Made by a program: the position numbers and the translations under genes. A DNA stretch of 36,899 nucleotides from Clostridiaceae bacterium (GTDB taxonomy: Bacteria > Bacillota > Clostridia > DSM-8532), in NCBI GenBank assembly GCA_012516065.1, contig JAAYXD010000282.1, positions 1 to 36,899 of the forward strand. The letters run 5' to 3'. This document shows, piece by piece, positions 10,261 through 28,579 of the stretch. The notes under the pieces are model-generated. The model saw only the letters and a list, made by a program, of their open reading frames with translations, did not search any database and was not told the origin of the DNA. Every line of letters begins with the position of its first letter. Within the stretch, counting starts at the first letter, position 1.

Positions 10261-10338
10261 ACATCTGATGAAAATACACCAATATGATAAAAGTACAATA
10301 TCATTTCTTTTGTTCATTATATACAATAAAAGAGTAAA

Positions 10339-10354
10339 ATGGCTGCGCAGCCAT
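10339..10354. promoter_or_regulatory. Perfect 16-bp palindrome upstream of the ABC binding-protein gene
   Basis: ATGGCTGCGCAGCCAT is its own reverse complement and lies 29 bases before the start codon, downstream of an AT-rich stretch that includes TATACAAT (10319-10326). It could be an operator, or an mRNA hairpin that stabilises or attenuates the transporter message. A T-rich stretch (TTAATTTTTA) follows, so a weak terminator between kinase and transporter genes is also possible. Confidence 0.45.
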
Positions 10355-10383
10355 ATTAATTTTTATGCTCAAGGAGGTCAAAT

Positions 10384-11778
10384 ATGAAAAGCAAATCACG
10401 TTTGTTGTCGATATGTCTGTTACTCTGCTCTGTAATGCTCCTGTTTATCGGATGTGATAAGGCGCCGAAGGCTGCCGGAGACTCCGGCGGAGCGGCACCG
10501 GCAGATAAAACATCAAATACTGCCAAGGAAGTCGTGCAGCTTACCTATTCGGGATGGGGGTCTCCCAGTGAGAAAAATGTAACCGAAAAGGCGATTCAGA
10601 AGTTTAATGATAATAACCCGAATATAAAGGTTACATATATGCATGTTCCCACGGACTATGTTACAAAAATGGCTACTCTTGCAGCGGCGAACCAGTTACC
10701 GGATGTTTTCATGTTCTATAAGAATAACACCGTTGAATGGGGAGAGCAGGGGAAATTATACAATCTTAAGGAATTTCTTGATAATGACCCGGATATTGAC
10801 GAAAGCAAGCTGATTCCGAATGCACTTCTCAGAATTGATGAGAATACGATTGTTGGAACAAAAATTTGTGAAGAAGCTTTTGCGCTCTACTATAATGTTG
10901 ACATGTTCAAAGAAGCGGGCGTGGAACCTCCACCGACAAGAGCTGAGGATGCCTGGGACTGGGATACGTTTGTTGAAGTGTGTAAAAAACTGACCATAGA
11001 CGAAAATGGAAATAATGCTTTATCACCCGATTTTAATAAAGACCGGATAAAGCAGTATGGAGTCCGTTTTCACAGGTGGATGTGGTCGCTGTTTTTCGAC
11101 TCTAACCAAACAAGCATAGTAAAGCCGGATAAAAGCGGTTTAAATCTTAGTGACCCGGCGGCTGCAGAGGCTGTTCAAAAACTTGCGGATTTAATTAATG
11201 TGCACCATGTTGCGCCAACAGTAACATCGGAAAAGAACCTGCCTGCTCCCGCAACGGCAATGCAAAGTAAAAAAGTTGCTATGAACATTGATGGGCAATG
11301 GGTAAACGTTGACCTGGCAGATGCGGGATTGAATTTTGATGTCGGTGTTCTTCCGAAAATGAAGGTTCCTTCAACGGTTCAGTTTGGCGAAGCAATTGTC
11401 ATGTCCGGACAGACAAAACACAAGGAAGAGGCATGGACTCTGTTGAAATGGATGATTAATCCGGAAACATCTGTTGAAATCTATAGCAGCGGATTATGGA
11501 TGCCTACGGTAAAAGAATGGTACACGAACCCTGAACTGTTAGAAAAATGGGCATATGTAAAACCTGGACATCCAGACGGGTTCAAATCTGCAGTTGTTGA
11601 TACGGTACTGAATTATGGATACAACAACTACGGATATTGGCTGAAGAATGCCGCTGAAATAGAAACTATTATTACTACTGCGTTGGATGATGTGTGGATA
11701 GGTGCAAAAACAGCGGCTGAGGCTTTCAAGGAAATTGAATCACAGTTGGCGGAAAAATATCAGGGTGTATACGAATAA
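10384..11778 (+). CDS. ABC transporter sugar-binding lipoprotein (family 1 extracellular solute-binding protein)
   Basis: 464 residues from ATG 10384 with AAGGAGGTC upstream. The N-terminus is a lipoprotein signal: Lys/Arg-rich start, hydrophobic core, then the lipobox LFIGC with lipid-modified Cys24, followed by an Ala/Gly/Ser-rich linker. The mature part has the MalE-like family 1 layout: VVQLTYSGWGSPSEKNVTEKAIQKFNDNNPNIKV at the start (residues about 50-80), LPDVFMFYKNN, ALYYNVDMFKEAG, and the C-terminal EEAWTLLKWMINPETS. It would capture an oligosaccharide outside the membrane and hand it to the two permeases downstream. The neighbouring GH127 gene suggests an arabinofuranose-containing ligand, which is inference. 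No ATPase gene is present, so a shared MsmK-type ATPase encoded elsewhere is expected. Confidence 0.93.
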   Translation: MKSKSRLLSICLLLCSVMLLFIGCDKAPKAAGDSGGAAPADKTSNTAKEVVQLTYSGWGSPSEKNVTEKAIQKFNDNNPNIKVTYMHVPTDYVTKMATLAAANQLPDVFMFYKNNTVEWGEQGKLYNLKEFLDNDPDIDESKLIPNALLRIDENTIVGTKICEEAFALYYNVDMFKEAGVEPPPTRAEDAWDWDTFVEVCKKLTIDENGNNALSPDFNKDRIKQYGVRFHRWMWSLFFDSNQTSIVKPDKSGLNLSDPAAAEAVQKLADLINVHHVAPTVTSEKNLPAPATAMQSKKVAMNIDGQWVNVDLADAGLNFDVGVLPKMKVPSTVQFGEAIVMSGQTKHKEEAWTLLKWMINPETSVEIYSSGLWMPTVKEWYTNPELLEKWAYVKPGHPDGFKSAVVDTVLNYGYNNYGYWLKNAAEIETIITTALDDVWIGAKTAAEAFKEIESQLAEKYQGVYE

Positions 11779-11814
11779 AATACACTTAACGGATGAACCG
11801 ATAAAGACTTGCCG

Positions 11815-11842
11815 GGAGGCTGTCTGTAAAAAGACAGTCTCC
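11815..11842 (+). terminator. Attenuator-type hairpin after the binding-protein gene
   Basis: GGAGgCTGTCT (11815-11825) pairs with AGACAGtCTCC (11832-11842) across a 6-base loop, starting 36 bases after the binding-protein stop. The T-rich tract is poor (TTCGC), so it may be a partial terminator or a 3' stabiliser. Either would leave more binding-protein message than permease message, as is common for such transporters. Confidence 0.6.
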
Positions 11843-11869
11843 TTCGCAAATAACAGGTTTTATTTATTA

Positions 11870-11962
11870 AAATGCCCTGCAGAACTTCTGCTTATTGAGG
11901 CGGAGTAATGAATCATCTTTATACTATACGTCACCTGCTGCTCCCACCATTACAGGGCATTT
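11870..11962 (+). ncRNA. Nested inverted repeats forming a structured RNA between transporter genes
   Basis: Outer arms AAATGCCCTG (11870-11879) and CAGGGCATTT (11953-11962) are perfectly complementary over 10 bases and enclose about 73 bases. Inside are a small hairpin CAGAACTTCTG (11880-11890) directly abutting the outer arm, and a second pair GTAATG (11905-11910) with CATTAC (11948-11953). The result is a branched, nested structure with no coding potential. I do not recognise a known RNA class. It could be a processing site, a regulatory element or a miniature mobile element. Confidence 0.5.
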
Positions 11963-11968
11963 GATAAT

Positions 11969-12010
11969 AATCGCGTCGTTTTTTATATAAAACCCACGGC
12001 GATTTTTGTT
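11969..12010 (+). terminator. Terminator-like hairpin before the permease genes
   Basis: AATCGC (11969-11974) pairs with GCGATT (11999-12004), followed by TTTTGTTTT. The stem is short (six to seven pairs) and the loop is long and T-rich, so termination would be partial. It lies just ahead of the AAGGGGAG ribosome binding site of the first permease gene. Confidence 0.4.
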
Positions 12011-12026
12011 TTAAGGGGAGATATCA

Positions 12027-12953
12027 ATGTCAAATAAAACAACAGCAAATGTAAAGTCATATACAGGAAGAAAAAAAAGATTGTTTGATGAGCTTTCGGG
12101 ATGGTTATTTGCCAGCCCTGCCATCCTTGGTTTTTTAATATTTATTTTGGGTCCGATGATAGCCAGCTTGTATTTAAGCATGACTGATTATACCATAGTT
12201 GTTAAGCCCAATTTTATTGGTTTTCGGAATTATGTTGAACTTTTTACTTCGTCAACCTCTCTTTTTTTTCAGGCGCTAAAAGTAACAGCTTACTATGTGG
12301 CCCTTTCTGTACCGATGCAAATTATTTTTTCTTATTCAATAGCGCTTTTACTTCATCAAAGAGTCAAGTGCCTGAGCTTTTTTAGGACAGCGTTCTATCT
12401 ACCCACCATTGTCCCCTTGGTTGCATCATCAATGGTATGGATGTGGCTTTTGAATCCGGATCTCGGTTTTCTGAATGAAATTCTAAGGGCATTGAACTTG
12501 CCCACAAGCCAGTGGATTTATGCCCAGGAGACTGTTATCCCTACTCTTGCGCTCATGAGTGTTTGGAGCAGCGGGGGCGCGATGCTTATATTTTTAGCTG
12601 CGCTTCAGGATATACCAAATGTATATTATGAAGCGATCTATATTGATGGGGGAAATAGTATTGATAAGCTGCGGTATGTTACAATTCCGATGACTACTCC
12701 GACCATTTTCTTTAATTTGGTTATGGGTCTGATAAACGGATTTCAGGTCTTCGTACAGCCATATATAATGACGGAAGGCGGACCGAAAAACTCCAGTCTG
12801 ATGTATGTTTTTTACCTTTACAGGGAAGCTTTTACTCACCAAAACATGGGTAATGCGTGTGCAATAGCATGGATCCTTTTTATTATCATTATGGCTTTCA
12901 CGGCTTTAATTTTTAAGACATCCCAAAACTGGGTATACTACGAAGGAGAGTGA
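12027..12953 (+). CDS. ABC transporter permease, MalF-type sugar subfamily
   Basis: 308 residues from ATG 12027 with AAGGGGAGATATCA upstream. Six membrane helices are apparent, starting with ASPAILGFLIFILGPMIASL after a basic cytoplasmic N-terminus. The cytoplasmic EAA loop is YYEAIYIDGGNSIDKLRYVT, the coupling helix that docks on the ATPase, followed by IPMTTP. This is the usual size and layout for the first permease (CUT1 class) of oligosaccharide importers. It precedes the second permease gene by 6 bases and lies 248 bases after the binding-protein gene, a gap filled with hairpins. Confidence 0.93.
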   Translation: MSNKTTANVKSYTGRKKRLFDELSGWLFASPAILGFLIFILGPMIASLYLSMTDYTIVVKPNFIGFRNYVELFTSSTSLFFQALKVTAYYVALSVPMQIIFSYSIALLLHQRVKCLSFFRTAFYLPTIVPLVASSMVWMWLLNPDLGFLNEILRALNLPTSQWIYAQETVIPTLALMSVWSSGGAMLIFLAALQDIPNVYYEAIYIDGGNSIDKLRYVTIPMTTPTIFFNLVMGLINGFQVFVQPYIMTEGGPKNSSLMYVFYLYREAFTHQNMGNACAIAWILFIIIMAFTALIFKTSQNWVYYEGE

Positions 12954-12959
12954 GATGAT

Positions 12960-13790
12960 ATGATTCGGGCTAAAATCTCCAAAGTCCTGATTTATACAGT
13001 TCTTATATTGGGTTCTTTGGCGTCCATTTTTCCTTTTTTCTGGTTGATTAGAAGTTCTTTAATGTCGACAGCACAAATTTTCCAGCTTCCTCCAATATGG
13101 ATTCCCAAGCCGTTTATATTTAGTAACTACCTTGAGCCATTTAAAATTCTTCCTTTTGCAAAATATTATATAAACTCTGCAGTAATCGTATCTTCGGTGC
13201 TGGTTGGTGTTCTTATAAGCAGTTCTCTTTCCGCTTACAGTTTTGCTCGATTGAAATGGAAATGGAGAGATCGGGTTTTTTATATTATTTTAAGCAGTAT
13301 GATGCTTCCATATGCAGTCACGATGATACCTACTTTCATAGGATGGAATGCCCTGGGCTTAGTAAATACATATTCTCCGCTTATTATTCCGGCCTATTTC
13401 GGAGGAGGCGCGTTCAATGTATTCCTGGTCAGGCAGTTTCTTCTTTCCATACCGAAGGAATTGGATGAAGCGGCGTATATAGACGGCGCAAGCAAATTGA
13501 AAATATTTATTAAAATTATTTTACCTTTATCAAAATCAGCGCTGATTGTTGTAGGGATTTTTACTTTTGTTAATACATGGAACGACTTTCTTGCACCGCT
13601 GATATATTTGAACAGCGAGCATCGTTTTACGCTCGCTCTTGGGCTTTTTCAATTCCGCGGCATGTACTCCGCACAGTGGAATGTTTTAATGGCGGCTTCC
13701 ACGCTGGTATTGCTTCCTAATATTATCGTTTTTATTATTGGGCAGAAATATATTCTCCAGGGAATAGCACTTACCGGTATTAAAGCCTGA
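12960..13790 (+). CDS. ABC transporter permease, MalG-type sugar subfamily
   Basis: 276 residues from ATG 12960. Its ribosome binding site GAAGGAGAG overlaps the end of the first permease gene, so the two are surely co-translated. It has six helices, with the N-terminal VLIYTVLILGSLASIFPFFW and the EAA loop LDEAAYIDGASKLKIFIKI followed by ILPLSK. The C-terminus GQKYILQGIALTGIKA is the standard MalG-type ending. It forms the heterodimeric channel with the MalF-type partner. The ATPase is not encoded here and would be supplied in trans. Confidence 0.93.
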   Translation: MIRAKISKVLIYTVLILGSLASIFPFFWLIRSSLMSTAQIFQLPPIWIPKPFIFSNYLEPFKILPFAKYYINSAVIVSSVLVGVLISSSLSAYSFARLKWKWRDRVFYIILSSMMLPYAVTMIPTFIGWNALGLVNTYSPLIIPAYFGGGAFNVFLVRQFLLSIPKELDEAAYIDGASKLKIFIKIILPLSKSALIVVGIFTFVNTWNDFLAPLIYLNSEHRFTLALGLFQFRGMYSAQWNVLMAASTLVLLPNIIVFIIGQKYILQGIALTGIKA

Positions 13791-13822
13791 ATTCTCAAAA
13801 TTATTGCAGGGGGAGTTGCGTT

Positions 13823-15808
13823 ATGAATAACGGATCAACAAGAAGTTCAGAAGAAGTCAGCTTGAAAGCAGTAAAAATTACCGATAGTTTCTGGTCTGGA
13901 TATCAGAAGCTTGTAAAGGAAGTTGTATTGCCATATCAATGGGAGGTTATGAATGATAGGGTACCCGAAGCCGAGCCCAGTCATGTAATAAAAAATCTCA
14001 GAATCGCAGCCGGTTTAGAAGATGGAGAATTTTATGGATTTTTCTTTCAAGATACCGATTTGGCCAAATGGTTGGAAGCGGTTGCATATATACTCGAGAC
14101 TTATCCCGATCCGGAGCTGGAAAAGCTTGCGGATGAGGCAATTGATCTGGTTGAAAAAGCCCAGCAGCCGGATGGATACCTTAATACTTATTTTACGATA
14201 AAGAAGAAGGGCAAACGCTGGACCAACTTATATGAATGTCATGAACTGTATACTGCCGGTCATTTTATCGAAGCCGGGGTTGCTTACTATCAGGCTACCG
14301 GAAAACGTAAGCTGCTGGATATTGTATGCAGGTTTGCCGATTACATTGATACTGTATTTGGGCCTGAACCGGGTAAACTGCAAGCATATGACGGGCACCA
14401 GGAAATAGAGCTTGCGCTTGTCAAATTATATAAAGTTACAGGTGAAAAACGTTATCTGGAGCTAAGTAAGTTCTTCCTGGATGAACGCGGAAAAGAGCCA
14501 TTTTATTTTGAAATAGAGTGGGAAAAGAGAGGAAAAGTATCAGAATGGAATAATAGCACTGATGAGAAATATTCCCCAGGTCAAAATCGTCAATATAATC
14601 AGACTCATTTACCGGTTAGGGAACAGAAAGAGGCTGTTGGTCATGCCGTCCGGCTGCTTTATATGCTTACGGGGATGGCAGATGTAGCAAAGGAATATAA
14701 TGATAAAAGCCTGTTGCAAGCATGCCGTAATTTATGGGAAAATATTGTTACGAGGCAGATGTATATTACGGGCGGAATTGGCTCCACATCAATAGGGGAG
14801 GCATTTACTTTTGATTATGATCTTCCCAATGATACAATATATGCCGAAACCTGTGCGTCCATTGGCCTTATCACATTTGCTCACAGAATGCTTCAAATAG
14901 AGAATAAAAGCGTATATGCTGATGTTATTGAAAAGGCGTTATATAACATAATTATTGGTTCCATGGCCAAGGACGGGAAACATTATTTCTATGTAAACCC
15001 GCTCGAGGTTTTTCCGGAAGCCAGTGAAAAAAATCCGATAAAACGGCATGTAAAACCAAGAAGACAAAAATGGTACAGTTGCGCATGCTGTCCTCCGAAT
15101 CTGGCAAGGTTAATCGCTTCGCTGGGACTGTATATATTCACTAAAAATAGTGACACTCTGTTCATACATCAGTACGCAGCATGTGAGGCCGAACTTGAAG
15201 TTGCGGGCTCAAAAATAAAAGTTGTTCAGGAATCTGCTTATCCCTGGAATGGTGAAATTAAAATTGGAATCGTATCAGATGTTCAAAAGGAATTCAATAT
15301 TGCTTTAAGAATACCCGGCTGGTGCAGAAAATACAGTGTTGATTTAAATGGTAATAAACTGGAAGCAGATAATTTATTGAAAGAAGGGTATTTATACATT
15401 CGAAATGTATGGAGTGGGAATGATCAGATACACTTAGTGCTGGATATGCCGGTAGAAATGATGGAAGCCAATCCGCTGGTGCGCGCAAATGCAGGAAAGG
15501 TCGCTCTGCAAAGAGGCCCGGTTGTGTATTGTATTGAGGAAGAAGATAACGGCGATAACCTTTCGGCTCTTTCCATATTGACAGAACCTGAAGTCGATTA
15601 TGATCCGGAACTGTTTGGAGGCGTACATGTAATAAAGATCAAAGGTTATCGGAGATTGAACGATGGATGGGAAAATAAGCTGTATAAACCGGCTGGAAGC
15701 AAATATAAACCTGTTAATATAAAAGCAATCCCATATTATTTATGGGGAAACCGGACACCCGGAGAAATGATGGTCTGGATAAGAAGAGCAGGTAATGAAA
15801 TTGATTGA
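13823..15808 (+). CDS. GH127 beta-L-arabinofuranosidase
   Basis: 661 residues, the usual length for glycoside hydrolase family 127 (DUF1680), from ATG 13823 with CAGGGGGAG upstream. The family marks are GGIGSTSIGEAFTFDYDLPN, YAETCASIG and CACCPPNLARL. In the characterised Bifidobacterium longum enzyme HypBA1, a zinc ion is held by Glu338, Cys340, Cys417 and Cys418, with Cys417 as nucleophile; the equivalents here are Glu342, Cys344, Cys422 and Cys423. All are present, so the enzyme should be active. There is no signal peptide, so it acts in the cytoplasm on imported beta-L-arabinofuranosides, such as those from hydroxyproline-rich plant glycoproteins. It is the last gene of the transporter unit, 32 bases after the permease gene. 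Confidence 0.92.
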   Translation: MNNGSTRSSEEVSLKAVKITDSFWSGYQKLVKEVVLPYQWEVMNDRVPEAEPSHVIKNLRIAAGLEDGEFYGFFFQDTDLAKWLEAVAYILETYPDPELEKLADEAIDLVEKAQQPDGYLNTYFTIKKKGKRWTNLYECHELYTAGHFIEAGVAYYQATGKRKLLDIVCRFADYIDTVFGPEPGKLQAYDGHQEIELALVKLYKVTGEKRYLELSKFFLDERGKEPFYFEIEWEKRGKVSEWNNSTDEKYSPGQNRQYNQTHLPVREQKEAVGHAVRLLYMLTGMADVAKEYNDKSLLQACRNLWENIVTRQMYITGGIGSTSIGEAFTFDYDLPNDTIYAETCASIGLITFAHRMLQIENKSVYADVIEKALYNIIIGSMAKDGKHYFYVNPLEVFPEASEKNPIKRHVKPRRQKWYSCACCPPNLARLIASLGLYIFTKNSDTLFIHQYAACEAELEVAGSKIKVVQESAYPWNGEIKIGIVSDVQKEFNIALRIPGWCRKYSVDLNGNKLEADNLLKEGYLYIRNVWSGNDQIHLVLDMPVEMMEANPLVRANAGKVALQRGPVVYCIEEEDNGDNLSALSILTEPEVDYDPELFGGVHVIKIKGYRRLNDGWENKLYKPAGSKYKPVNIKAIPYYLWGNRTPGEMMVWIRRAGNEID

Positions 15809-16065: not shown

Positions 16066-16124
16066 AACCGGCGTATGTGTATTAAATAAATCGAAGTCTT
16101 ATTTTTACTGCAAGGAGCTGTAAT

Positions 16125-19100
16125 TTGGTTATGAATTATAAATTCCTTAAATTACCGGCAGTGATTCTGACAGTATTTTTACTGATGGGAATGGTATTCC
16201 CGCAGATGCAGCCAAGTTTTGCGAACAACATATTCAATCCTTCCGTTTCATACAATTCCGCGACGGGAAAATGGGATATAAAGTGGATTCCGATAGATGG
16301 AACCGCAACCTTTTCATTGACATGGCACGGGCCTGCGGGAGCTATGCCCGCATATACCGACGAAACTCTTGTGTTTGACGGAAAATACAACGTAGTAAGC
16401 CTTACGTTTCTGCCGGACCATATATATGATTTAACTTTCAGTTTCAAGGATTCGGACGGAAATCCGGTCCAGTTTGTTAACAAATACGGAGAAATTGTGG
16501 ACAAAGAAACGCTGTTCTTCCTGTCAAAGATCACGTTCCAGGGTACGTCGTTCAATGACGCTGCCGTTCTCGGAGGACTCGAGGACGCCGATCCCGATCT
16601 TATACAAAGCGGCGGCCAGACAGTGAGAATTATAAGCGGAAACGACCCTAAAATCACACTCAGGTGGAAAGTGCCGACGATTTGGGAGCCGTCGGTCAAC
16701 GCCGTCCTTTACATTACCGATGAAAATGTTAACCTTGACAGGCTTGAGAGCGGCGGCACATCGCATGTCGATCTTGACTATGCGTATTTTCATATAAGGA
16801 TGTATGAGGTTACAAATATAATAACCGAAAGAATATTTACAACAACGGTCCAGGAAGGAACAGGCGCGATAATAGTAAGCCAGTCGGGCGATCCCGTGCA
16901 GGGCTTCGGAACCGGCGGAAGCGTTACCGCTTCCGACGGGTTTGTTTATTTTACGCTCGACCAGTCCGACGGAATACTGCCCGGAACGGAATATGAGAAC
17001 GTTAATATTAAACTGACATTCCGGTCTGGCCTTTCCGAAGCACCGTTCACGAGGCTCAACTCCGCCTCAGGCAATTTTCCCATTGAGAACAAGGACAATA
17101 TTTTCCAGTCTACAGGCGGTCAGATTACGTCAATTTTCACACCGCTGTGGTTCGAAGCGTCTAAGGTTGACGTCGACAAGCTTGAGCTTAAGGTATACAA
17201 GATAAAAAGCCGGAACTATACCGAACTGTATTATGAAGTACAGGACGCCGGTTCAATTGTGGAACTTTTGGAGAATCCCAGCCAATCAAGCAGCGGCATA
17301 AAGCTGCCCGACGCGAGCATACCGGATACAACGGGCTGGGGAAGCGTTATTGTTGATATTCCAATCGACCGGAACGGCGAGCATCCCCAAAGGTTTTACA
17401 GGTTTGTCGTAACGGACGGGGATTCGCTTACCCCGTTAGGGTCTCTTGCGATAAATTTGCAGCTTCTCGGGAACGATACGGGAAAACCCCCCGTTCCGAG
17501 GGAAATAGAAGCGGAACCGCTTTACAGCGGAAAGCAGGAAGTTTTTTATAAAAACCCGCAGGTGCCTGTTCCGGTAAAAATTCCGCTGTCCGATATAAGA
17601 ATTTCATTTGAAAAACCGCTGGTCTGGATGACGCGGCCGTGGAACGAAATAATAGCAAGCCCGGATGATGATAATGATTTCACATTCCACCTGCTTTTAA
17701 ACACATACCTGTCTGATGACATTAAAGCGGTTGAAACAAGAGAAGTAGGCGATGAAGGGGTTACGGTATATGTGCCCGTGAAAGAGAAGAGGGTGCTCGC
17801 TGTCGGGAAACACCAGCTTAATGAGGACCCGAATGACAGCACGCGCGTCTATTTCGAGATTGACGGTTCGAAGCTGTTTTATGATTATGTGAGGGATGTT
17901 CCGCTGGACTATGAAAACGACGTTGATTACGATATAAACGGCAACGGCGATTATCCTGATTTCCTTCTGCCGAATACCAAATATTACATCAGGATGTTTT
18001 CGACAAGGCTCAGGAACCATGATGATGTTAACTGGGCGTTAAGAGATCAGCTTGATTTTGAAAGCGATATTTCATACATATCTCCGATAACCAGTTTTAC
18101 GACATACCCTACAAGGGAAAAGCCGGTGCCCCTTCCGAACCTTTCACTTGATATCGACTTTGAGCCCGATCCCGATCCTGTGACGGGTAAGCCCGTAATG
18201 AACGGGATTATAGTGGAATTCCCGAAGATATTGAATGACAACGACTGGCTCAATTATACGAATGTTACGCAAGGCAGGCGCATTGCGTACGAGCTTTATA
18301 TAAGCGACAGCCCCGACGAGAGCAGTTTCATCCTGCTCGATTCTCCGTTTCTCGCACCGCTGGAAACGCATTATCCGGACGATAACCCGGACGCCCCGAT
18401 GTCTGCGCTCGTAACGGTCTTTCCGGCAGGCAGCGGCGAGGAGTTAAAGCCAAATACGACTTATTATTTCATGGCACGCGCGAAACTGTATGTCAACGGG
18501 GAAACCGAGCCTTTTATCACAAGCGATCTAACGCCGATAAAATCGATTACAACCCCGAAAACCGATTCGGGGGACCTTGATGATCTGGACAGGGAGCCGA
18601 GGACGCCTGTTGAATTCTCGATAGCAAGAGACAGTGAAGGCGAACTCGAGCTGACCGATTCGAAAGTTACGTTTAACTGGCTGCATGCCGAGAAGGACGT
18701 AACGTATGAGATGGTTGTCACAAGGAAAAAACTCGCGCCGAACGCATCGTCTGATGATTACAAAAATGATCCGTACAATGTGGGCGACGCGTCAACAACG
18801 GGATTTCTGCAGGCATACAGGGATTACATTAACGCCGGAGATTTGGAACTGCATATTAAACTTGACGATTCACAGCTTAAAAGCATTGGTCTTGAATATG
18901 ACCCTGAAACCCGTATTGCAAGGTTCCCGATAAGCCTGCCGTTTTTAAGGCCGAACCACCTTTATTATTTCAGTTTAAGGGCTGTCCGCGGCAGGGGGAC
19001 CGAAGATGCCCGGTACAGCAAATGGGTAAGCATCCCCGTAACGACAAAGATGGTCGCTCCTCCCGATTTCTTTGAAGTCGTAACCGACGTGCAGCTTGGG

Positions 19101-21224
19101 TTTAATATCAGGCTTTACGGAGATATACCGCCCGAAGATGTCGGTATAATGCTTAAGAAGGGATACCAGTCAAGAGCGGCGTATGTTGAGCTGTCAAAGG
19201 CGAAATATACCGTCGTCAGGGATGGAAACACGTATTATATAAGGATTTTCGATCTCGATCCCGATACATGGTACGACATAAGGCCGTTTTATAAAAAAGC
19301 AGACAAAACATACTGGTATGACAGCGACAGCAAGAGCTGGAGCGAGTCGGAAGGCGATCCTGTCACGATGAAGACAAGGAACACATTGAATGAAATTGAA
19401 GTACGTTTTGCCGGAGAAAAACGCTATAAGTATTTCCTCGAACTGAGGACGGACGATGATGAGGGTTATATAACCCTTGAATATAACGCAACAGGCGAAA
19501 CGGACTATGGTTATACCCTCGATGACGGCACGCGCATCGAGTTCTATCTCGAAAAGACAAACGCTTACCTCGAGGAAGGCTTAGAGGATAAATACCTGTA
19601 TTACGCGAAAATCAGCAGCGCGCGCCGCAGGAGAAGCGACGGAACCTACACAAGGCAGCCGCTTTTCAGCAACACGCGCTATTATATAAAGGTTTGGGCG
19701 CATTATATTGAAGACTCGAAGCATATAGGCCCTGTCACGATACGGACCGACTTCAGCCAGAGCGACTACGACAAGGATCATATGAAGGACGAATTACGCG
19801 ACATGTTCGAGACAAAGGCCGACAGCCTCATGCGCAAGCTTTATTTTACCGTTGACGAGAAAAATAAGGCGGTCAACCGCGTTATGCTTAAGGCTTCGAG
19901 GGTATCAAACCTGATGCAGGTATCGGGGTATACCGGTGTTACGGTGGACATATCGAAGGAAAACCCCGAAGCGGCTATTGATGTCATATTAATTCCGTAT
20001 GATATTCTGAAAACTGTACAGGATTACAACAGCCGCCTGACAATTAAGCTGGCGGGCTGCGACATAACCTTAACGCGCGACTCATTCGACCTTGACGCGC
20101 TGAAAAAGCTGTCCGACGCAGTCGGCGTAAAAGAGACTATGCTTGAAATTACGTCTGAACGCAAAGCATCCGGAACGGCGCCGGTACCGTTCGGTTATTC
20201 GTACGCGTCAAAGGTGTATGATATAAAGTTCGTTTCTGTTGGTATGAAACGTACATATGCGGAAATCAACGAGATTATATATGACATACTGAAAGAACCA
20301 GAGGCAAAAGGCCCGTTCAAGTACGGCATCCTTGACAGGGAGCTTGTCAGGCTGCTGGAAAAGGAAACGAACCTTAACTATATGAGCCATGTTGAGCTTG
20401 ACAATATGATTTCCAAAATTATTGACATCGTTGAAGAGGAGCTGTCAATGTATATCAAAGATATTCTTGAAGGCGGGAGAGGCTTTTCCGCTTCAAGGAT
20501 AAGTTATAAGGATGTACCCGGGTTGCCGGGCGGCATTAAGCTTAAAATGGTTCACAGCGGCGCGGGCGCAATGACCGGGCCTTACATGCTCACGCGTGAG
20601 CAGCCTGAATGGCGCGAACCGGAAGGAATAAAGGCATGGATATTCCCGTATGTCGTATTTACCGCATACAAGCCCGGACAATATGCCGTATTTAATCTGC
20701 CGGCAGTGAACATACAGACTCCGGACGGATCGGTTGATCCTGATTTCCGGCTTCTGTCGCAGAAATATGACCTGAGGAAAGCGTTCGGTACGACGTATTT
20801 ATATCCCGGAGATTATGTTTCCGCGGAAAGCGCCGTTCTGCTTTTCGAGATCATAACGGAAACGGGCAGTGAGGTCGAGGGCCTGTCGATACCGGCTAAA
20901 ATAAATTACTATAAGCTTAATGAAATATTCTCCGCTGCTTCGATAAGGCAGAATATAAACCGCGGGCAGGCGGTCTGCCTTGTTGTCGAGATATATTGTT
21001 ATAAAACGGGAATACCTTCGGCGATGTTAAGACCGTCAAAAAGGCTGTATATAAGCAATTCCGATTCGATGCCCGATTATTTGTACAACCGGCTCGTTGT
21101 TGCGCTTGATCTGGGCATTGAAACTCTCGAACCTGGCAATGTTTATACTGCGGAAAAGACGGCAACCGCAGGGGAGCTTATCGAAAAAGTGATATCTGTG
21201 CTCGATTTGCTTGGTGAATGGTGA
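16125..21224 (+). CDS. Giant secreted fibronectin-III-like surface protein with degenerate SLH end
   Basis: 1699 residues starting at TTG 16125, which is spaced 7 bases from AAGGAG (16112-16117); ATG 16131 would be 13 bases away. A signal peptide covers residues 1-34, ending PSFA-NN. The body is beta-rich. Repeated PP/TP-containing joints and TxYYFxxRA strands (TKYYIRMFS, TTYYFMARAK, NHLYYFSLRAV, TRYYIKVWA) mark at least five fibronectin-type-III-like modules. A coiled or helical segment lies near 1230-1500, followed by a C-terminal region with weak SLH character (DYLYNRLVVALDLGIETLEPGN...YTAEKTATAGELIEKVI). It probably sits on the cell surface as an S-layer or matrix component. No enzymatic motif was found. 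Codons are richer in GC (ccg, gcg, gac) than in the transport operon upstream. It is followed 16 bases later by a second protein of the same kind. Confidence 0.78.
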   Translation: MVMNYKFLKLPAVILTVFLLMGMVFPQMQPSFANNIFNPSVSYNSATGKWDIKWIPIDGTATFSLTWHGPAGAMPAYTDETLVFDGKYNVVSLTFLPDHIYDLTFSFKDSDGNPVQFVNKYGEIVDKETLFFLSKITFQGTSFNDAAVLGGLEDADPDLIQSGGQTVRIISGNDPKITLRWKVPTIWEPSVNAVLYITDENVNLDRLESGGTSHVDLDYAYFHIRMYEVTNIITERIFTTTVQEGTGAIIVSQSGDPVQGFGTGGSVTASDGFVYFTLDQSDGILPGTEYENVNIKLTFRSGLSEAPFTRLNSASGNFPIENKDNIFQSTGGQITSIFTPLWFEASKVDVDKLELKVYKIKSRNYTELYYEVQDAGSIVELLENPSQSSSGIKLPDASIPDTTGWGSVIVDIPIDRNGEHPQRFYRFVVTDGDSLTPLGSLAINLQLLGNDTGKPPVPREIEAEPLYSGKQEVFYKNPQVPVPVKIPLSDIRISFEKPLVWMTRPWNEIIASPDDDNDFTFHLLLNTYLSDDIKAVETREVGDEGVTVYVPVKEKRVLAVGKHQLNEDPNDSTRVYFEIDGSKLFYDYVRDVPLDYENDVDYDINGNGDYPDFLLPNTKYYIRMFSTRLRNHDDVNWALRDQLDFESDISYISPITSFTTYPTREKPVPLPNLSLDIDFEPDPDPVTGKPVMNGIIVEFPKILNDNDWLNYTNVTQGRRIAYELYISDSPDESSFILLDSPFLAPLETHYPDDNPDAPMSALVTVFPAGSGEELKPNTTYYFMARAKLYVNGETEPFITSDLTPIKSITTPKTDSGDLDDLDREPRTPVEFSIARDSEGELELTDSKVTFNWLHAEKDVTYEMVVTRKKLAPNASSDDYKNDPYNVGDASTTGFLQAYRDYINAGDLELHIKLDDSQLKSIGLEYDPETRIARFPISLPFLRPNHLYYFSLRAVRGRGTEDARYSKWVSIPVTTKMVAPPDFFEVVTDVQLGFNIRLYGDIPPEDVGIMLKKGYQSRAAYVELSKAKYTVVRDGNTYYIRIFDLDPDTWYDIRPFYKKADKTYWYDSDSKSWSESEGDPVTMKTRNTLNEIEVRFAGEKRYKYFLELRTDDDEGYITLEYNATGETDYGYTLDDGTRIEFYLEKTNAYLEEGLEDKYLYYAKISSARRRRSDGTYTRQPLFSNTRYYIKVWAHYIEDSKHIGPVTIRTDFSQSDYDKDHMKDELRDMFETKADSLMRKLYFTVDEKNKAVNRVMLKASRVSNLMQVSGYTGVTVDISKENPEAAIDVILIPYDILKTVQDYNSRLTIKLAGCDITLTRDSFDLDALKKLSDAVGVKETMLEITSERKASGTAPVPFGYSYASKVYDIKFVSVGMKRTYAEINEIIYDILKEPEAKGPFKYGILDRELVRLLEKETNLNYMSHVELDNMISKIIDIVEEELSMYIKDILEGGRGFSASRISYKDVPGLPGGIKLKMVHSGAGAMTGPYMLTREQPEWREPEGIKAWIFPYVVFTAYKPGQYAVFNLPAVNIQTPDGSVDPDFRLLSQKYDLRKAFGTTYLYPGDYVSAESAVLLFEIITETGSEVEGLSIPAKINYYKLNEIFSAASIRQNINRGQAVCLVVEIYCYKTGIPSAMLRPSKRLYISNSDSMPDYLYNRLVVALDLGIETLEPGNVYTAEKTATAGELIEKVISVLDLLGEW

Positions 21225-21240
21225 TTGGAGGGAACCCGGC

Positions 21241-24200
21241 ATGAGAACAAAAAGCATCATATTGCGCTTAATCGTATGGATTATTATATTGGGAATGCTG
21301 GCTGCTTTCGTTGTGGATTTGGCCCTTGCGCAGGTGATCCCTTCAACGCCGCCGCAGAATTTAAGGGTATCCGATATAGGATATGAGAATGAAGCCGGCC
21401 AGAACTGGTTTGCGGCTTTTTCGTGGAATTTGCCCACGTACCCTCCCGAAGCGACGCAGGATAAGTCACAGACATTTTATTTCAACCGCATCGAAAGGGG
21501 TACCGGAAAAATTATAAATGATGTGGCGCAAATAACATTAGGCAGCACGGCCACCTCTTTTTCAACATCGGGATACGGAATTGAGCTCGAACACGGAACA
21601 ATTTACGAATTATACGGAACTTCGTCTTACACATACGGTGATTTAGGGCAGTATACGTTTACGTCAGGGAAATCAAACCGTGTTAAATTCATTACGCATC
21701 TTGAGTTCGGCGCGGAATTGATTTCAGGAACAAATGAGATAAAAATCGTTTGGGACGACGTATGGGATACGGACGGGCGTATTGACTACCGCATCCTCAT
21801 TTCGGATACGTCGGGATTCACGCAGCCCCCGGCAATTCCGGATATCATAGGCTCGCAGATTGGTACCGAACAGAGCAGGGTGACCGTCTCGGGCGGGCGC
21901 CTTGAATACGTATATACGAATGCGCTTCCGGGCAGGGAATACTCAATCAAGGTTATCCCGCTCGTTAATTCGGATGTTGCCTCTATACCGGCAGAAGAGC
22001 TTCCGGTTGTTCGAGTAAAAACAGAAATCCTTTTAAAAGCAAAGAAAATGGGAGAAACTGCCGATGGCGTAAGGTGGATGCTTTTCTGGGATCCCATCAT
22101 TAAAGGTTCTATAGGCAGCACAACGTTCACAAGAGTTGAATACAAGCTGTACCGGCATGACACGGCGGGGAATGCCACATTTTTCGCTTTGGTTGTCGAC
22201 CGGGACAGATTTGAAATGATCATGAAACCCGAAGATGTCGAAAAATACACGTATTCAATTGAAGCTGTCGCTTACAGGCCGGACGGCTCTTCGGTCCCTT
22301 TCTATTCGTCGACTAAAGTGTCGCTCGTGGAACAGATACCGGAGTATCCGACTGCGCCGGAATTTGTTAAAAGTTTCCCGACAGCAGATCCCGCACCGCT
22401 TGTGTTTGACGACCTGCTGACGTCAAACAGCGCAACGCTTCTTTGGAAAGTGCCTGTTTCCGGCGACGGGAAAGTTGACACCGAGGTTTATTACGATCTT
22501 TATCTCGTTGATAAAATTGAAGAGATGAGCACACTTCCGATAACGAAAAGGATCGGCACAAACATAACCATGACGCGCGCGAATGAGGTCAGGGAACTGG
22601 AAACGGGAAGGCTTATCGGCTACCGTTATACAATAAACGGCCTCAATTCGAACTCGACATATTACGCGGTTCTTATAGCGAAAAAGAACTTTATAATCGA
22701 AAGCGAAGACGGTTTTATGGTGTCGCGCCCGTATGCGTCCGACCCGGCGATAAAGGTAATAATAACGCGCCCCGACGCCGAGATGGACAAACCCATCGCG
22801 CCGCCTTCTCCGCCGTTCAGGCTCAAACCGGGCGACGATTCGATCCGCGGAAACGAAATAATACTGCAGCTTGAAAAATCATGGCTCGAAATGTATCATT
22901 CGGGTTTAAAGAAATGGCTGTATGTCGTCGGCAGGGACGATCCCGAAAGAGGCAGGGAAGAGAGCTATTATAACGAAAACAATTCGTTTGATTATGATGA
23001 TTATGTTCAAAATCAAAACCTTCCGGACGGAGACGCAAACAAGAAACCCGCGAGAACTGTGGATTATCCGGCCGGCTGGCAGGTAAAAATACACTGCGTT
23101 GAGTATGATGATGCCCTTCAGATAGTTAAGTCGATAACCGGAAGGGATTTTGTCTCATACAGCGATCTGAGCCGTAATTATATTTTATCCTTACAAAAGC
23201 AGATTGAACCGGTACCCGTTCCGGATTTGAAACCTGATGAACGGCAGGTTTTCCTGCTTCCCGTACGCAACCTTGATCCTAATACGACATACCTGATTTG
23301 GGTAACCGTATCAAACAGCACGGGGACTCTTGAGTCCGATCCTTCCGATCCGCTGCTTATTACCACACTGCCCGATTTCCCGCCCGTTGTTGAAACGCCT
23401 GTCGTGCCGACGGATCTGAAAGGCATCGCGGCCGATACTTACGTTGATCTGTTCTGGAGTTACCTTCCCGGATACAGCTATAACATAAGCTACGCGGCCG
23501 AAGATGACAGGACGAAGGCTATCGGGACAGTAACGGTTTCCTACGAGCAGCTGCGTTACGAGCCTTCATACAGGATCGCGGCTTTAAATGCGAATACCGT
23601 CTATTATTTCTGGATCCAGGCCCTTGCCCCGTCCGAACGGGGCGGGTTTACCGCGTCCGACTGGAGCAACTCGATCGCAGTGAAAACCGAGCCGTACAAC
23701 CCTCCGCCTAAACCGAGGGGTTTTGGAATAAAGGGTACACCTGACGCGATAACCGAGACAAGTATCTTTTACGAATGGATTCCCGACGAATCGGTTACGT
23801 TCATCCTTGAAATTTCAGAAAACGCCGATTTTTCGGATTCCGTCGAATACAGTGTGAACGGGTCGGAATACCAGGCTACGGGTCTGAAATCGAACTACCG
23901 GTATTTTGCGAGGCTTTATTCATACAGCGCCGCTACGGGTTTACGCTCCGAACCGAGTCATGTCGTGATGGTCGTGACAAGAAAGGGACGCGGCGAATAC
24001 GATGCCGATGTCCCGCTTGATGATATCCCCGTAGGGGACATGCTCGTAATTGACGCGATAGCAATTGACGGCGTTTGGAACGCAAAAGCCGTTGATGTCA
24101 ACGCGCACAGGCTGTCCGAGAAAATCAGGCAGTCGGTCGCCGGTACATTTTCGGTGGATTTGACCGTTCCGCCGCCCGGAACGAAAACGATAAGGCTTGA

Positions 24201-25158
24201 ACTCGGCGGCGAGGTATTGGAAACACTCGCGGGGACAAACCGTACGCTTATTGTCAGAACGCCCGGATTTGATATATATGTTTTCCCCGGATGCTTCCTG
24301 CAGGATACATATTTCAGGCTGAAACAAAGCCTCCGCGGCATATCGTTAAGGATTGACGTGCGTCCGAACCCGGGCGATATAAAGCCTGAGAACAGCATGC
24401 GGCTGATGGCTCCGATAACCGAAATGAAGGTGTACGCGGGGCGTGGCGAAAGCTTCTTCATGCTTGAGGATTTCATAAAACCCGTAAAAGTCATTCTGCC
24501 GATAGAAAATGCCGCCGAAGCGGACAAAATAAAAGCAAGGCATTATGATACGGTACGGTTGAAATGGGATGACGTTGATTACAGATGGATTGCTCAGGAG
24601 CGGAAATTTGCCGTCTATCCGAAAAAAAGCGGCGCTGTCGCGGCTGCAGCACTGAAGCCTGCGAATATTGCCGCGGGAAGCGGGATAGAGCAGACTCTTA
24701 AAAATATTTTTTCAATATACCGGATGCCTTCCGTCAATCCGGACAATCCTGCGCTCGAAAAGGAACTCACCGTGACCGAAGGCATAAAGCATTTAATGGA
24801 TATTATACCGTATGAATACCGGGACGGCGATGTAACGGAAAAGGCATTGAGAGCCGGCCTGCTGCTGCCGGGGAACGCGAACGGAAACGCTCCGTTAACC
24901 AAAGAAGAAGCCGTTTATGCTGCGGTTGCGGTATTACGGAAAAAAACAGGTCAGAATATACCGGATTCAACGTCGATATTGGCTCAAATTCCGAATGCGT
25001 CCGAAATCCGGCCGCAGTACAGGGCAGCAGTTGCTTTCGCGTTAAGCAGCGGGATTGTTGCCGAAAACGGCGGCATATTTTTGCCAAAAGCTCCGATAAC
25101 ACGTTCCGAATTACTGATCATTATTGAAAATATTCTTATCATGGCAGGTGAAATATGA
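21241..25158 (+). CDS. Large secreted fibronectin-III protein with C-terminal SLH-like region
   Basis: 1305 residues from ATG 21241, 8 bases after TTGGAGGG (21226-21233); an in-frame extension to 21211 overlaps the previous gene. Signal peptide about 1-30, ending LALA-Q. Fibronectin-III-like modules start at about residues 35 (TPPQNLRVSD), 375, 730 (VPTDLKGIAADTYVDLFWSY) and 830 (PPPKPRGFGIKGT). Their closing strands look like NSTYYAVLIA, NTVYYFWIQAL and NYRYFARLYS. A non-repetitive beta-rich stretch follows (about 920-1160). Last comes a region with SLH character: RAGLLLPGN...PLTKEEAVYAAVAVLRKKTG, then YRAAVAFALSSGIVAENGG with PITRSELLIIIENIL. It is presumably exported and held on the wall with its partner encoded 16 bases upstream, in one operon. 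Confidence 0.8.
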   Translation: MRTKSIILRLIVWIIILGMLAAFVVDLALAQVIPSTPPQNLRVSDIGYENEAGQNWFAAFSWNLPTYPPEATQDKSQTFYFNRIERGTGKIINDVAQITLGSTATSFSTSGYGIELEHGTIYELYGTSSYTYGDLGQYTFTSGKSNRVKFITHLEFGAELISGTNEIKIVWDDVWDTDGRIDYRILISDTSGFTQPPAIPDIIGSQIGTEQSRVTVSGGRLEYVYTNALPGREYSIKVIPLVNSDVASIPAEELPVVRVKTEILLKAKKMGETADGVRWMLFWDPIIKGSIGSTTFTRVEYKLYRHDTAGNATFFALVVDRDRFEMIMKPEDVEKYTYSIEAVAYRPDGSSVPFYSSTKVSLVEQIPEYPTAPEFVKSFPTADPAPLVFDDLLTSNSATLLWKVPVSGDGKVDTEVYYDLYLVDKIEEMSTLPITKRIGTNITMTRANEVRELETGRLIGYRYTINGLNSNSTYYAVLIAKKNFIIESEDGFMVSRPYASDPAIKVIITRPDAEMDKPIAPPSPPFRLKPGDDSIRGNEIILQLEKSWLEMYHSGLKKWLYVVGRDDPERGREESYYNENNSFDYDDYVQNQNLPDGDANKKPARTVDYPAGWQVKIHCVEYDDALQIVKSITGRDFVSYSDLSRNYILSLQKQIEPVPVPDLKPDERQVFLLPVRNLDPNTTYLIWVTVSNSTGTLESDPSDPLLITTLPDFPPVVETPVVPTDLKGIAADTYVDLFWSYLPGYSYNISYAAEDDRTKAIGTVTVSYEQLRYEPSYRIAALNANTVYYFWIQALAPSERGGFTASDWSNSIAVKTEPYNPPPKPRGFGIKGTPDAITETSIFYEWIPDESVTFILEISENADFSDSVEYSVNGSEYQATGLKSNYRYFARLYSYSAATGLRSEPSHVVMVVTRKGRGEYDADVPLDDIPVGDMLVIDAIAIDGVWNAKAVDVNAHRLSEKIRQSVAGTFSVDLTVPPPGTKTIRLELGGEVLETLAGTNRTLIVRTPGFDIYVFPGCFLQDTYFRLKQSLRGISLRIDVRPNPGDIKPENSMRLMAPITEMKVYAGRGESFFMLEDFIKPVKVILPIENAAEADKIKARHYDTVRLKWDDVDYRWIAQERKFAVYPKKSGAVAAAALKPANIAAGSGIEQTLKNIFSIYRMPSVNPDNPALEKELTVTEGIKHLMDIIPYEYRDGDVTEKALRAGLLLPGNANGNAPLTKEEAVYAAVAVLRKKTGQNIPDSTSILAQIPNASEIRPQYRAAVAFALSSGIVAENGGIFLPKAPITRSELLIIIENILIMAGEI

Positions 25159-25383: not shown

Positions 25384-26640
25384 ATGAGCGTATTTATTAT
25401 TGACGGCGGGGTTCCGCTTAAAGGAACAGTCAGGATCAGCGGTGCAAAAAATGCCATTCTTCCTTCGCTGGCTGCTTGTTTGTTGACGGAGGAAAAAACC
25501 ATATTGAAAGATGTTCCGGATCTTGAAGATGTACATACAATGTGTAATCTTCTTAATTCATTGGGAGCCGGAACCACCTTCAACAAAAAAGACAAGGAAA
25601 TTATCGTGGACGCGTCGTCAGTCAATAAATATACGGCTCCCTACGAGCTTGTCAACCAGATGAGGGCTTCATTTCTTGTTATGGGTCCGCTCCTGGCGAG
25701 AAAAGGAAGGGCAAAGGTTTCACTTCCCGGAGGATGCGCAATTGGGAGCAGGCCCGTTGATCTCCATCTCAAAGGTCTGTCCGCACTTGGTGCGAATATA
25801 AATACGGGTCACGGCTATGTCGAAGCGAGCGTTAAAGGGAGACTCACGGGTGCGAGGATATATCTTGACTTTCCGAGCGTCGGCGCGACTGAGAACATAT
25901 TGATGGCTTCGGTTTTGGCCAAAGGCCGGACAATAATCGAAAACGCGGCAACCGAGCCTGAAGTTGTCAATCTTGCGACACTGCTTGTATCAATGGGCGC
26001 GAATATAACAGGAGCGGGAACAGATACGATACGTGTTATCGGCACCGATCGGCTGCACGGAACCGAGCACGCGGTAATACCCGACCGCATTGAAGCCGGT
26101 ACGTTCATGCTGGCTGCAGCAATTACGGGCGGCAGTATTACGCTTGAAAACGTTATGACCGAACATATAAAACCTATAAGCGCGAAGCTCAGGGAAGCCG
26201 GCGTTGAAATTTCGGAAGAACTGGGCGTTGTTCATGTGAGATCGACATCAAACCCGAAAGCGGTCGACATCAAAACGCACCCGTATCCGGGATTCCCTAC
26301 GGATATGCAGGCACAAATGACTTCTTTCCTAAGTCGTGCCGAAGGAACAAGCATGATAGTTGAAACGATATTTGAAAACAGGTTTATGCATATAAGCGAG
26401 CTTAAACGCATGGGCGCAAGGATTAAGATTGACGGGCGGACAGCCATTATTGAAGGCCGCGTGCCGCTAATGGGAGCCCAGGTAAAGGCCACCGATTTGA
26501 GAGCCGGCGCGGCATTGATTCTTGCGGGGCTATGCGCCGAAGGCAGGACAGAAATAAGCGATATACGCCATATTGACAGGGGCTATGAAAGAATGGAGGA
26601 AAAGCTGAGGGCGCTTGGTGCAAGAATAAGAAGGGAATAG
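25384..26640 (+). CDS. murA: UDP-N-acetylglucosamine 1-carboxyvinyltransferase
   Basis: 418 residues, the standard MurA length, from ATG 25384 (AAAAAAGGGAGCG upstream). MurA transfers enolpyruvyl from phosphoenolpyruvate to UDP-GlcNAc, the first committed step of peptidoglycan synthesis, in the cytoplasm. Key residues are Lys22 and Asn23 in SGAKNAILPSLAA, and Cys118 in LPGGCAIGSRPVDLHL, the fosfomycin-target cysteine (Cys115 in Escherichia coli). Also seen are the paired EPT-barrel repeats (PSVGATENILMAS, EAGTFMLAAAITGG) and PGFPTDMQAQ with the conserved Asp. Low-GC Gram-positives often have two copies, murA and murZ; which one this is cannot be told here. The 225-base gap before it shows only a weak GCGG/CCGC hairpin (25267-25280). 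Confidence 0.96.
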   Translation: MSVFIIDGGVPLKGTVRISGAKNAILPSLAACLLTEEKTILKDVPDLEDVHTMCNLLNSLGAGTTFNKKDKEIIVDASSVNKYTAPYELVNQMRASFLVMGPLLARKGRAKVSLPGGCAIGSRPVDLHLKGLSALGANINTGHGYVEASVKGRLTGARIYLDFPSVGATENILMASVLAKGRTIIENAATEPEVVNLATLLVSMGANITGAGTDTIRVIGTDRLHGTEHAVIPDRIEAGTFMLAAAITGGSITLENVMTEHIKPISAKLREAGVEISEELGVVHVRSTSNPKAVDIKTHPYPGFPTDMQAQMTSFLSRAEGTSMIVETIFENRFMHISELKRMGARIKIDGRTAIIEGRVPLMGAQVKATDLRAGAALILAGLCAEGRTEISDIRHIDRGYERMEEKLRALGARIRRE

Positions 26641-26643
26641 CTG

Positions 26644-27231
26644 TCAGTCGTTAAGCTCATCGAGCGTAAGCCTGAAACTCGGAATAAAATGTTCGATGAA
26701 ATAATCGGCTTCGGGCATATTCATGTTTTTGATTTTTTTCGCTGTCGCTTCTGCGGCTTTTTTAAATTCGGTGTTTCCTGCCTTTTCCTCTTCAAGGCAT
26801 TTGATATACGCGCATATGCGGTCGGCGGCTTTTACAATTCTGCCCTCATCCGATGACTCGTCGTAAAAAAGAATGCCGCGGTAAATATCCCTTAACTCTT
26901 CGGGGAGCATTGTCAGAAGCTTCTCTTTCGAAATATCTTCCATATCTTTATATGCTTTTTGCATAAGCGGGTTGAAATACTTTATCGGCGTCGGCATGTC
27001 ACCGGTAAGCGCCTCGTTTGAGTCATGATAAAGCGCAAGAACGGCAATGCGTTCCGGATTGACGCTTCCGCCGAAATACACGTTTTTTATCACAGCGAGC
27101 GCATGGGCTATTACCGCCACCTGGTGGCTGTGTTCCTGTATGTTCTCTATATTCGTGTTGCGCATTAAGCTCCAGCGCATGATGTATTTCATGCGTGAAA
27201 GAAACGCAAAGAACTGGTGTGATTTATCCAT
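26644..27231 (-). CDS. yfbR: HD-domain 5'-deoxynucleotidase, YfbR type
   Basis: 195 residues, starting on the minus strand at 27231 with GGGAG 8 bases before the ATG. YfbR hydrolyses deoxynucleoside 5'-monophosphates and so helps balance dNTP pools. The family hallmarks are all present: MRWSLMRNTNIENIQEHSHQVA with Arg19, Trp20 and metal ligand His34, then LYHDSNEALTGDMPTPIKYF with His69-Asp70, and AADRICAYIKCLEE with the late conserved Asp. Its length matches Escherichia coli YfbR (199 residues). It is convergent with murA, the stop codons being 3 bases apart, and no terminator hairpin separates them, so the two transcripts probably overlap. Confidence 0.9.
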   Translation of the reverse strand: MDKSHQFFAFLSRMKYIMRWSLMRNTNIENIQEHSHQVAVIAHALAVIKNVYFGGSVNPERIAVLALYHDSNEALTGDMPTPIKYFNPLMQKAYKDMEDISKEKLLTMLPEELRDIYRGILFYDESSDEGRIVKAADRICAYIKCLEEEKAGNTEFKKAAEATAKKIKNMNMPEADYFIEHFIPSFRLTLDELND

Positions 27232-28527: not shown

Positions 28528-28565
28528 GAGTCTTCTCCGTTTTTGTTTGTTTTTTTGGTATATAA

Positions 28566-28579
28566 ACATTTTAACAGAG
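28566..28579 (-). repeat. Perfect subterminal inverted repeat, right copy
   Basis: Exact inverted match to 27351-27364. It lies 38 bases upstream of the transposase ATG (28527, minus strand), where a transposase-bound site could also regulate expression of the gene. Confidence 0.7.

Follow-up and report, generated by a model that had tools for sequence, protein, structure and literature searches.

In a 36,899-nucleotide stretch of a Clostridiaceae bacterium genome (assembly GCA_012516065.1, contig JAAYXD010000282.1; Bacillota, Clostridia, order DSM-8532), hereafter the window, two adjacent genes, which we call P1 and P2, encode giant proteins rich in fibronectin type III-like (Fn3) modules and ending in a predicted surface layer homology (SLH) fold. 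We consider it probable that the pair is a paralogous, Sec-exported, SLH-anchored envelope scaffold of fixed architecture, kept with wall-polymer genes and acting as a structural layer or spacer rather than as an enzyme or a variable adhesin. The observations behind this reading concern the genes themselves, their predicted fold, paralogy, conservation, synteny and co-occurrence with the enzyme CsaB.

The P2 start codon lies 16 bp past the P1 stop codon (Table 1), and the P1 start is preceded by AAGGAG at 16112-16117, with an alternative in-frame ATG at 16131. An earlier note, made from the sequence alone, had described the two as coupled genes for exported proteins without a catalytic domain, and each of these points is borne out: both open reading frames (ORFs) are present at this spacing, a Pfam scan of both proteins matched no catalytic family, and each has a predicted Sec-type hydrophobic N-terminus with nothing comparable later in the chain. 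Over the first 80 residues, hydropathy peaks at 2.31 in P1 and 2.71 in P2, with later maxima of 1.17 and 1.59, and the export signals were judged by eye from hydropathy and cleavage motifs. No sortase motif or second strong hydrophobic stretch was found in P1 or P2. The codon adaptation index, a proxy only for expression level, is 0.693 for P1 and 0.688 for P2, ranking 12th and 16th of the 58 genes compared. A promoter scan 5' of P1 gave matches no more frequent than in shuffled sequences, while terminator-like sites around P2 and murA exceed those in shuffles, but one of these falls within P2 and two sit on the minus strand.

The same note had the proteins made mostly of Fn3-like modules with weak, degenerate SLH ends, and it proposed profile searches and structure prediction as checks. 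The modular composition is supported by both. In P2, five stretches match Pfam fn3 (E 7e-16), and SLH narrowly misses its cut-off (19.4 versus 20.8 bits). The window P1 has no Pfam match at E<=1, and its composition is read from relatives, with fn3 in 14/24 members of the N-terminal alignment (E<=0.01) and SLH in 16/40 C-terminal members (E<=0.1), together with the predicted fold of its last Fn3 module. AlphaFold2 (AF2) models were obtained for P1 residues 1085-1699 (39 homologues; mean predicted local distance difference test (pLDDT) score of 88.4, predicted template modeling (pTM) score of 0.65) and for P2 residues 106-1305 (41 homologues; mean pLDDT 82.4), and for both proteins they gave Fn3 modules and an SLH triad. 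When compared by VIA-align, the last 170 residues of the P1 model match the SLH triad of Bacillus anthracis Sap with Z 13.7 (root-mean-square deviation (rmsd) 3.0-3.2 over 148-159 residues), and its first 127 residues match Fn3 domains with up to Z 8.5. The last 164 residues of the P2 model match the Sap triad with Z 16.9 (rmsd 2.7, 157 residues), and Fn3 structures are matched by residues up to 810. The SLH ends are thus degenerate in their sequence motifs and not in their predicted fold, which is that of a normal triad.

Sequence profiles give a similar picture at lower sensitivity: the P2 profile matches Sap SLH with E 4.9e-5, whereas the P1 C-terminal profile does so weakly (E 0.012). A PDB profile search with alignment A1 matched nothing, and a search of a viral fold library returned one nameless match (E 6.8e-4) and other weak ones, two of them SLH-annotated. 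Cohesin and dockerin families were absent from P1, P2 and four homologues from three other loci (Pfam, E<=1), as well as from the 40 C-terminal (E<=0.1) and 24 N-terminal (E<=0.01) members of the P1 alignments. Within the P1 array, residues 597-613 (window ~17913-17963) form an Asp/Asn/Gly-rich loop, possibly calcium-binding, that precedes an invariant Y-P-x-F-L-x-P-N-T stretch in the P1 alignment.

P1 and P2 are, by profile comparison, paralogues: their alignment spans 622 columns (Prob 98, E 2.8e-13). Between the Fn3 array and the SLH triad, each contains a middle domain outside Pfam, and these two domains alone align with Prob 99 and E 6e-18 (hhalign). Within the window genome, P2 is the sole match to the P2 middle-domain profile, and in PDB profile searches the middle domains gave only weak, scattered matches, all above E 0.03. 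We regard this domain as a candidate for a new family. As part of the larger model, the P1 middle stretch matches ankyrin ZU5-UPA (Z 8.3-9.2) and adhesion-GPCR GAIN structures (Z 8.1-9.1), scores that are little above the level of unrelated models and make this weak resemblance a lead. For the P2 model, GAIN and ZU5-UPA are not among the matches listed, which is no evidence of absence because Fn3 structures fill that list.

Within the order, P1 is found in 30/33 genomes and P2 in 28/33. The contig of one genome lacking P2 (G015) starts inside P2, which explains that gap, and those with P1 and no P2 (G013, G014 and G021) or with neither (G022) are 75-86% complete. That G025 has truly lost the pair was considered and rejected, its murA running into the contig end. 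Across the class, P1 occurs in 44/391 genomes and 20/223 genera, some of the matches being partial, and P2 in 34/291 genomes. Among 398 genomes of the phylum, P2 is seen only in the window genome and in seven genomes of one other genus, which lies outside the class and which we take to be Caldicellulosiruptor; similarly, two of the class carriers are presumably C. thermocellum and C. clariflavum. This conservation across related genomes puts the pair far beyond chance. P2 measures 1242-1353 aa in 42 copies and P1 1465-1908 aa in 39 (10th-90th percentile 1615-1723), the P1 statistic excluding L107, truncated by the start of its contig, and L151, where P1 is split into three ORFs with an internal TGA. 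One P1 alignment likewise excludes L151 and also L162, a short contig without P2. With nearly fixed lengths and a single copy, the pair does not vary in repeat number as adhesins do.

The gene order around the pair is also conserved. The earlier note had placed the pair directly before murA and suggested asking whether this holds in related genomes, and it does: murA follows P2 in all 20 loci of the order (L090-L109) and lies 1-3 genes after P2 in 16/20 loci of the class (L147-L166). In the order, a 5'-deoxynucleotidase gene of the yfbR type follows murA in 19/20 loci, the remaining one (L106) ending inside murA. An apparent absence of murA beside P2 in G030 (L105) was rejected, as tblastn places murA and yfbR there under a long antisense ORF. 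This 452-codon ORF (L105 2707-4065, plus strand) runs across both genes, and comparable readings, whole or pieced, occur in other loci of the order; it is probably a codon-bias effect.

Among the class loci, P1 and P2 are adjacent in 19/20, with L162 being without P2; L160 and L164 end too early to include murA, and in L165 P2 is followed by a further protein, X, with murA not near. X, an SLH-only protein of ~280 aa, stands directly after P2 in 13/20 class loci (L147-L155, L157, L163, L165 and L166) and was confirmed as SLH by Pfam in L150. It travels with the pair outside the order of the window, and no clear orthologue was seen in the window genome among the SLH loci examined (20 search loci and four contig stretches), where only general SLH similarity was found. 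Genes for spoIID and an M23 protein follow murA in 13/20 class loci, and ATP synthase genes lie 5' of P1 in six (L147, L148, L150, L151, L153 and L161), two of these genes being confirmed by Pfam in L147. When the loci were extended, wecB preceded the atp genes in 3/4 (L189, L190 and L192; L191 starts at a contig end), and in L159 it directly precedes P1. Judging from these arrangements, the ancestral order was likely wecB-atp-P1-P2-X-ywmB-murA-spoIID-M23. In the order of the window, ywmB (spoIIT) is absent from 33/33 genomes, with Bacillus subtilis matched as a positive control, and spoIID-family genes are present in 32/33, but not at the pair locus in the loci examined; the pair and murA are still together although ywmB and spoIID have gone from the locus.

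Also relevant to wall attachment are the SLH motifs and CsaB. A TRAE-like motif is the hallmark of SLH binding to wall polymer, and CsaB is the pyruvyl transferase of the secondary cell wall polymer. In the window, the three P2 repeats read LTVTE, LTKEE and ITRSE. In wider relatives, the second P1 repeat has TRQE and the third TRAE or TRGE, and the third P2 repeat has TRGE. The window genome carries CsaB (TIGR03609, E 1.5e-78), as do all 44 P1-bearing genomes (each E <= 2.3e-69), versus 205/347 genomes without P1. The SLH ligand in the titles of the matched SpaA structures is pyruvylated N-acetylmannosamine (ManNAc), and wecB makes UDP-ManNAc.

From the fold, the pairing and the constraint, we infer wall binding, a partnership of P1 with P2 and a structural role. 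In this scheme, P1 and P2 would be made together from one operon and exported via Sec. Their SLH triads would bind the pyruvylated secondary wall polymer non-covalently and so anchor them, or would have done so in their ancestors, with at least P2 so held today, while P1 might be held via its own diverged triad, via P2, or via X where X exists. The pair-specific middle domain would join the anchor to the Fn3 rods and space or join the two proteins, and the rods, being of fixed length, would stand out from the wall and make up a layer or spacer of constant height. The locus would be tied to genes for wall precursors, namely murA and, in Caldicellulosiruptor, wecB. A more specific version, which we put forward tentatively and hold to be doubtful, is that P1 and P2, with X outside the order, form a dedicated heteromeric scaffold of ancient origin that belongs to the standard wall of Caldicellulosiruptor and of this branch of Clostridia. 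It would be a two-rod layer with its own, as yet undescribed middle domain, its dose coupled to wall-precursor synthesis, in which at least one triad, that of P1, switched from polymer binding to protein-protein docking.

Compared to known systems, the pair shares with the SLH-anchored S-layer proteins Sap of B. anthracis (3pyw/6bt4) and SpaA of Paenibacillus alvei (6cwf, 7sv3) the three-repeat C-terminal SLH fold, export and the lack of catalysis, with the SpaA triad matching the models at Z 11-12 (P1) and 15 (P2). It differs from them in having Fn3 arrays instead of lattice domains, diverged TRxE motifs, a tandem paralogous arrangement and its own middle domain. The anchoring scaffoldins of cellulosomes (OlpB, SdbA and ScaC) are likewise modular, SLH-anchored and non-catalytic, and some come from the same genera (PMC4582956, in the part available to us), whereas the pair is without detected cohesin or dockerin, is single-copy and is conserved in a wall-synthesis locus. 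Finally, the weak fold likeness of the P1 middle domain model to eukaryotic GAIN (BAI3, 4dlo) and ankyrin ZU5-UPA (6m3q), at Z 9.1-9.2 over 135-153 residues, is not accompanied by any match in profile searches of Pfam or the PDB and may reflect only a common beta arrangement.

Several points weigh against a wall-bound scaffold of two partners. The pTM of the P2 model is 0.37, so that its single domains are usable and the arrangement of its modules is not. In the window, the P1 repeats read only INRGQ and ATAGE, without a clean TRxE, and genera g2 and g7 carry DNQSS-type sequences at the P1 motif; P1 may therefore have lost polymer binding. The association of CsaB with P1 (Fisher p 6e-10) is uncorrected for phylogeny. 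The same is true of the pairwise identities of P1 and P2, which correlate at 0.98 over 35 loci, as compared to 0.89 and 0.92 with MurA; shared ancestry alone yields high correlations, and the P1-P2 excess is thus only suggestive. In Caldicellulosiruptor, we find wecB-P1-P2-X in all three loci examined, the pair not being beside murA, and since wecB also belongs to the ancestral neighborhood, its position there is weaker evidence than it seems. Because wecB and the atp genes share that neighborhood, the pair may be near murA through inheritance of the gene order. It is a real possibility, though one we lean against, that the link to murA is functionally meaningless and that the pair represents inherited accessory surface genes in a stable locus, which would be compatible with the other readings. 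The ancestral order explains all of the neighbors, and P1 is present in just 44 of the class genomes surveyed; on the other side, atp, ywmB and spoIID have gone from the locus in the order of the window, and the pair and murA have stayed together in every one of its loci.

The remaining alternatives concern what the proteins do. The earlier note had offered either a self-assembling surface layer or an undescribed scaffold, and the second of these fits the non-catalytic, modular, exported proteins with an SLH fold, a fixed architecture and no paper found on them. A crystalline two-component S-layer lattice is less likely than a scaffold, and we think it unlikely. Export, SLH ends, beta-sandwich modules, near-universal presence in the order and codon adaptation above the middle would all suit a lattice. 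However, the codon adaptation is moderate rather than extreme, other SLH proteins are numerous in the window genome (35 matches, some in ORFs of ~1000 aa), and the S-layer protein identified by proteomics in the presumed carrier C. thermocellum is Cthe_2348, encoded elsewhere (according to the available part of PMC3039559). That the pair is an adhesin or binds substrates such as plant material or other cells seems to us quite unlikely. By inferred identity, the carriers include several cellulolytic organisms, and Fn3 arrays on SLH anchors are common among surface proteins of plant-degrading clostridia, yet the fixed length and single copy contrast with repeat-variable adhesins, no carbohydrate-binding, cohesin or dockerin family was matched, and the synteny is with wall and ATP synthase genes rather than catabolic ones. 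A role as a sporulation or engulfment factor is suggested by the proximity of the pair to spoIIT (ywmB), spoIID and an M23 gene (SpoIIQ-like) in many relatives, the latter two following murA in most of the class loci, and by the action of spoIIT in sigma-E activation (PMC4703394, in the part available). We find it highly improbable: the pair and murA persist together in the order of the window, where ywmB is missing from every genome and spoIID is off the locus, and SLH-anchored proteins work outside the cell.

The composition of the pair had been noted as more GC-rich than the operon upstream, and this contrast is real. It stems, however, from the upstream genes, which form a block with a low GC content at third codon positions (GC3) of 0.36-0.42; P1 and P2, with a GC3 of 0.54, fall toward the top of the range of 0.41-0.58 spanned by a sample of genes from other contigs and are normal for the genome. 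A foreign origin of the pair was rejected for this reason, the upstream block being the outlier. This block encodes an AraC-type response regulator, a histidine kinase, a sugar ABC transporter and an enzyme resembling aceric acid hydrolase (499 bits, under the cut-off of 950), and among the loci examined it stands between the LysM-GH18 gene and P1 in the window genome only. As the divergent LysM-GH18 gene adjoins the 5' side of P1 in four relatives (Table 1), the block is, on composition and gene order, an insertion that separates two genes neighboring each other in relatives. At this site, L023 and L093 carry genes for SLH proteins, and the site may thus be a hot spot where surface or sugar genes insert.

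Elsewhere in the window, a cyclic di-AMP (ydaO/yuaA) riboswitch (36575-36703, minus strand, 92.4 bits) is found directly 5' of a citrate synthase gene (35001-36377, minus strand), to our knowledge an unusual target for this riboswitch. A T-box leader (30700-30940, plus strand, 112.4 bits) precedes an 842-codon gene (31057-33585, plus strand), in whose product about residues 290-834 match an acyl-CoA ligase and the first 290 residues are not covered by the matches listed; T-boxes mostly control amino-acid genes. The ORF at 30709-31026, which overlaps this leader, is probably no gene. An IS30-family transposase (27436-28569, minus strand, 213.6 bits) ranks last in codon adaptation among the 58 genes compared.

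Table 1. Features of the P1-P2 locus (window coordinates, except for X, which is given in the coordinates of two other loci)
Feature	Position	Strand	Details
LysM-SH3-GH18 protein	4876..6396	-	divergent; adjoins P1 5' side in L090, L091, L092, L108
Low-GC3 block	6746..15808	+	between LysM-GH18 gene and P1
P1, giant Fn3-rich protein with SLH-fold end	16125..21224	+	1699 codons from TTG
P1 probable Sec signal peptide	16125..16223	+	residues 1-33, PSFA/NN cleavage; by eye plus N-terminal hydropathy peak
P1 Fn3-like array	16227..19757	+	residues 35-1211; fold match for last module (1085-1211) only, fn3 in relatives
P1 middle domain, outside Pfam	19869..20702	+	residues 1249-1526; weak GAIN/ZU5-UPA-like fold; long helical insertion near residues 1378-1449
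P1 C-terminal SLH triad	20703..21218	+	diverged TRxE motifs; AF2 model residues 443-614 match 3pyw/6bt4, Z 13.7
P2 ribosome-binding site	21227..21232	+	GGAGGG, between P1 stop codon and P2 ATG
P2, giant Fn3-rich protein with SLH-fold end	21241..25158	+	1305 codons from ATG
P2 probable Sec signal peptide	21241..21330	+	residues 1-30, ALA/QV cleavage; by eye plus hydropathy
P2 Fn3 array	21331..23985	+	residues 31-915, about seven modules; Pfam fn3 in 5 stretches, AF2 with Foldseek/VIA
P2 middle domain	24067..24660	+	residues 943-1140; homologous to that of P1
P2 C-terminal SLH triad	24661..25152	+	third repeat keeps ITRSE; Z 16.9 to 3pyw; profile match to Sap SLH
murA	25384..26640	+	conserved 3' neighbor; TIGR01072, 596.6 bits; starts 225 bp after P2
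5'-deoxynucleotidase (yfbR type)	26644..27231	-	conserved next neighbor in the order; 19/20 loci
X, SLH-only protein	L186 11031-11864; L150 11993-12853		TRAE-type repeats, short N-terminal region; outside the order of the window

In C. thermocellum, the tags Cthe_2610-2614 would be expected to cover the pair, which the ATPase numbering fits. In the genome taken as this species, the pair comes immediately after the F1F0 ATPase genes, and the C. thermocellum F1F0 ATPase is Cthe_2602-2609 (PMC3039559, available part). A literature search, with most subscription papers outside its scope, returned no paper on the pair and nothing on Cthe_2610-2614, and the available parts of PMC4582956, PMC2668762, PMC6106730, PMC3039559 and PMC4703394 make no mention of it. 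SLH-anchored Fn3 proteins are already known; the new part is the conserved P1-P2 unit with its middle domain outside Pfam. A giant pair of fixed architecture, conserved in a core locus together with genes for the wall and for ATP synthase, points to a structural component of the Gram-positive envelope not named in the literature searched, in hosts that by inferred identity include C. thermocellum, C. clariflavum and Caldicellulosiruptor. Some of the carrier hosts are genetically manipulable, and the role of the pair is therefore directly testable. The loss of TRxE in one partner would further offer a natural case for asking if SLH triads can switch ligands.

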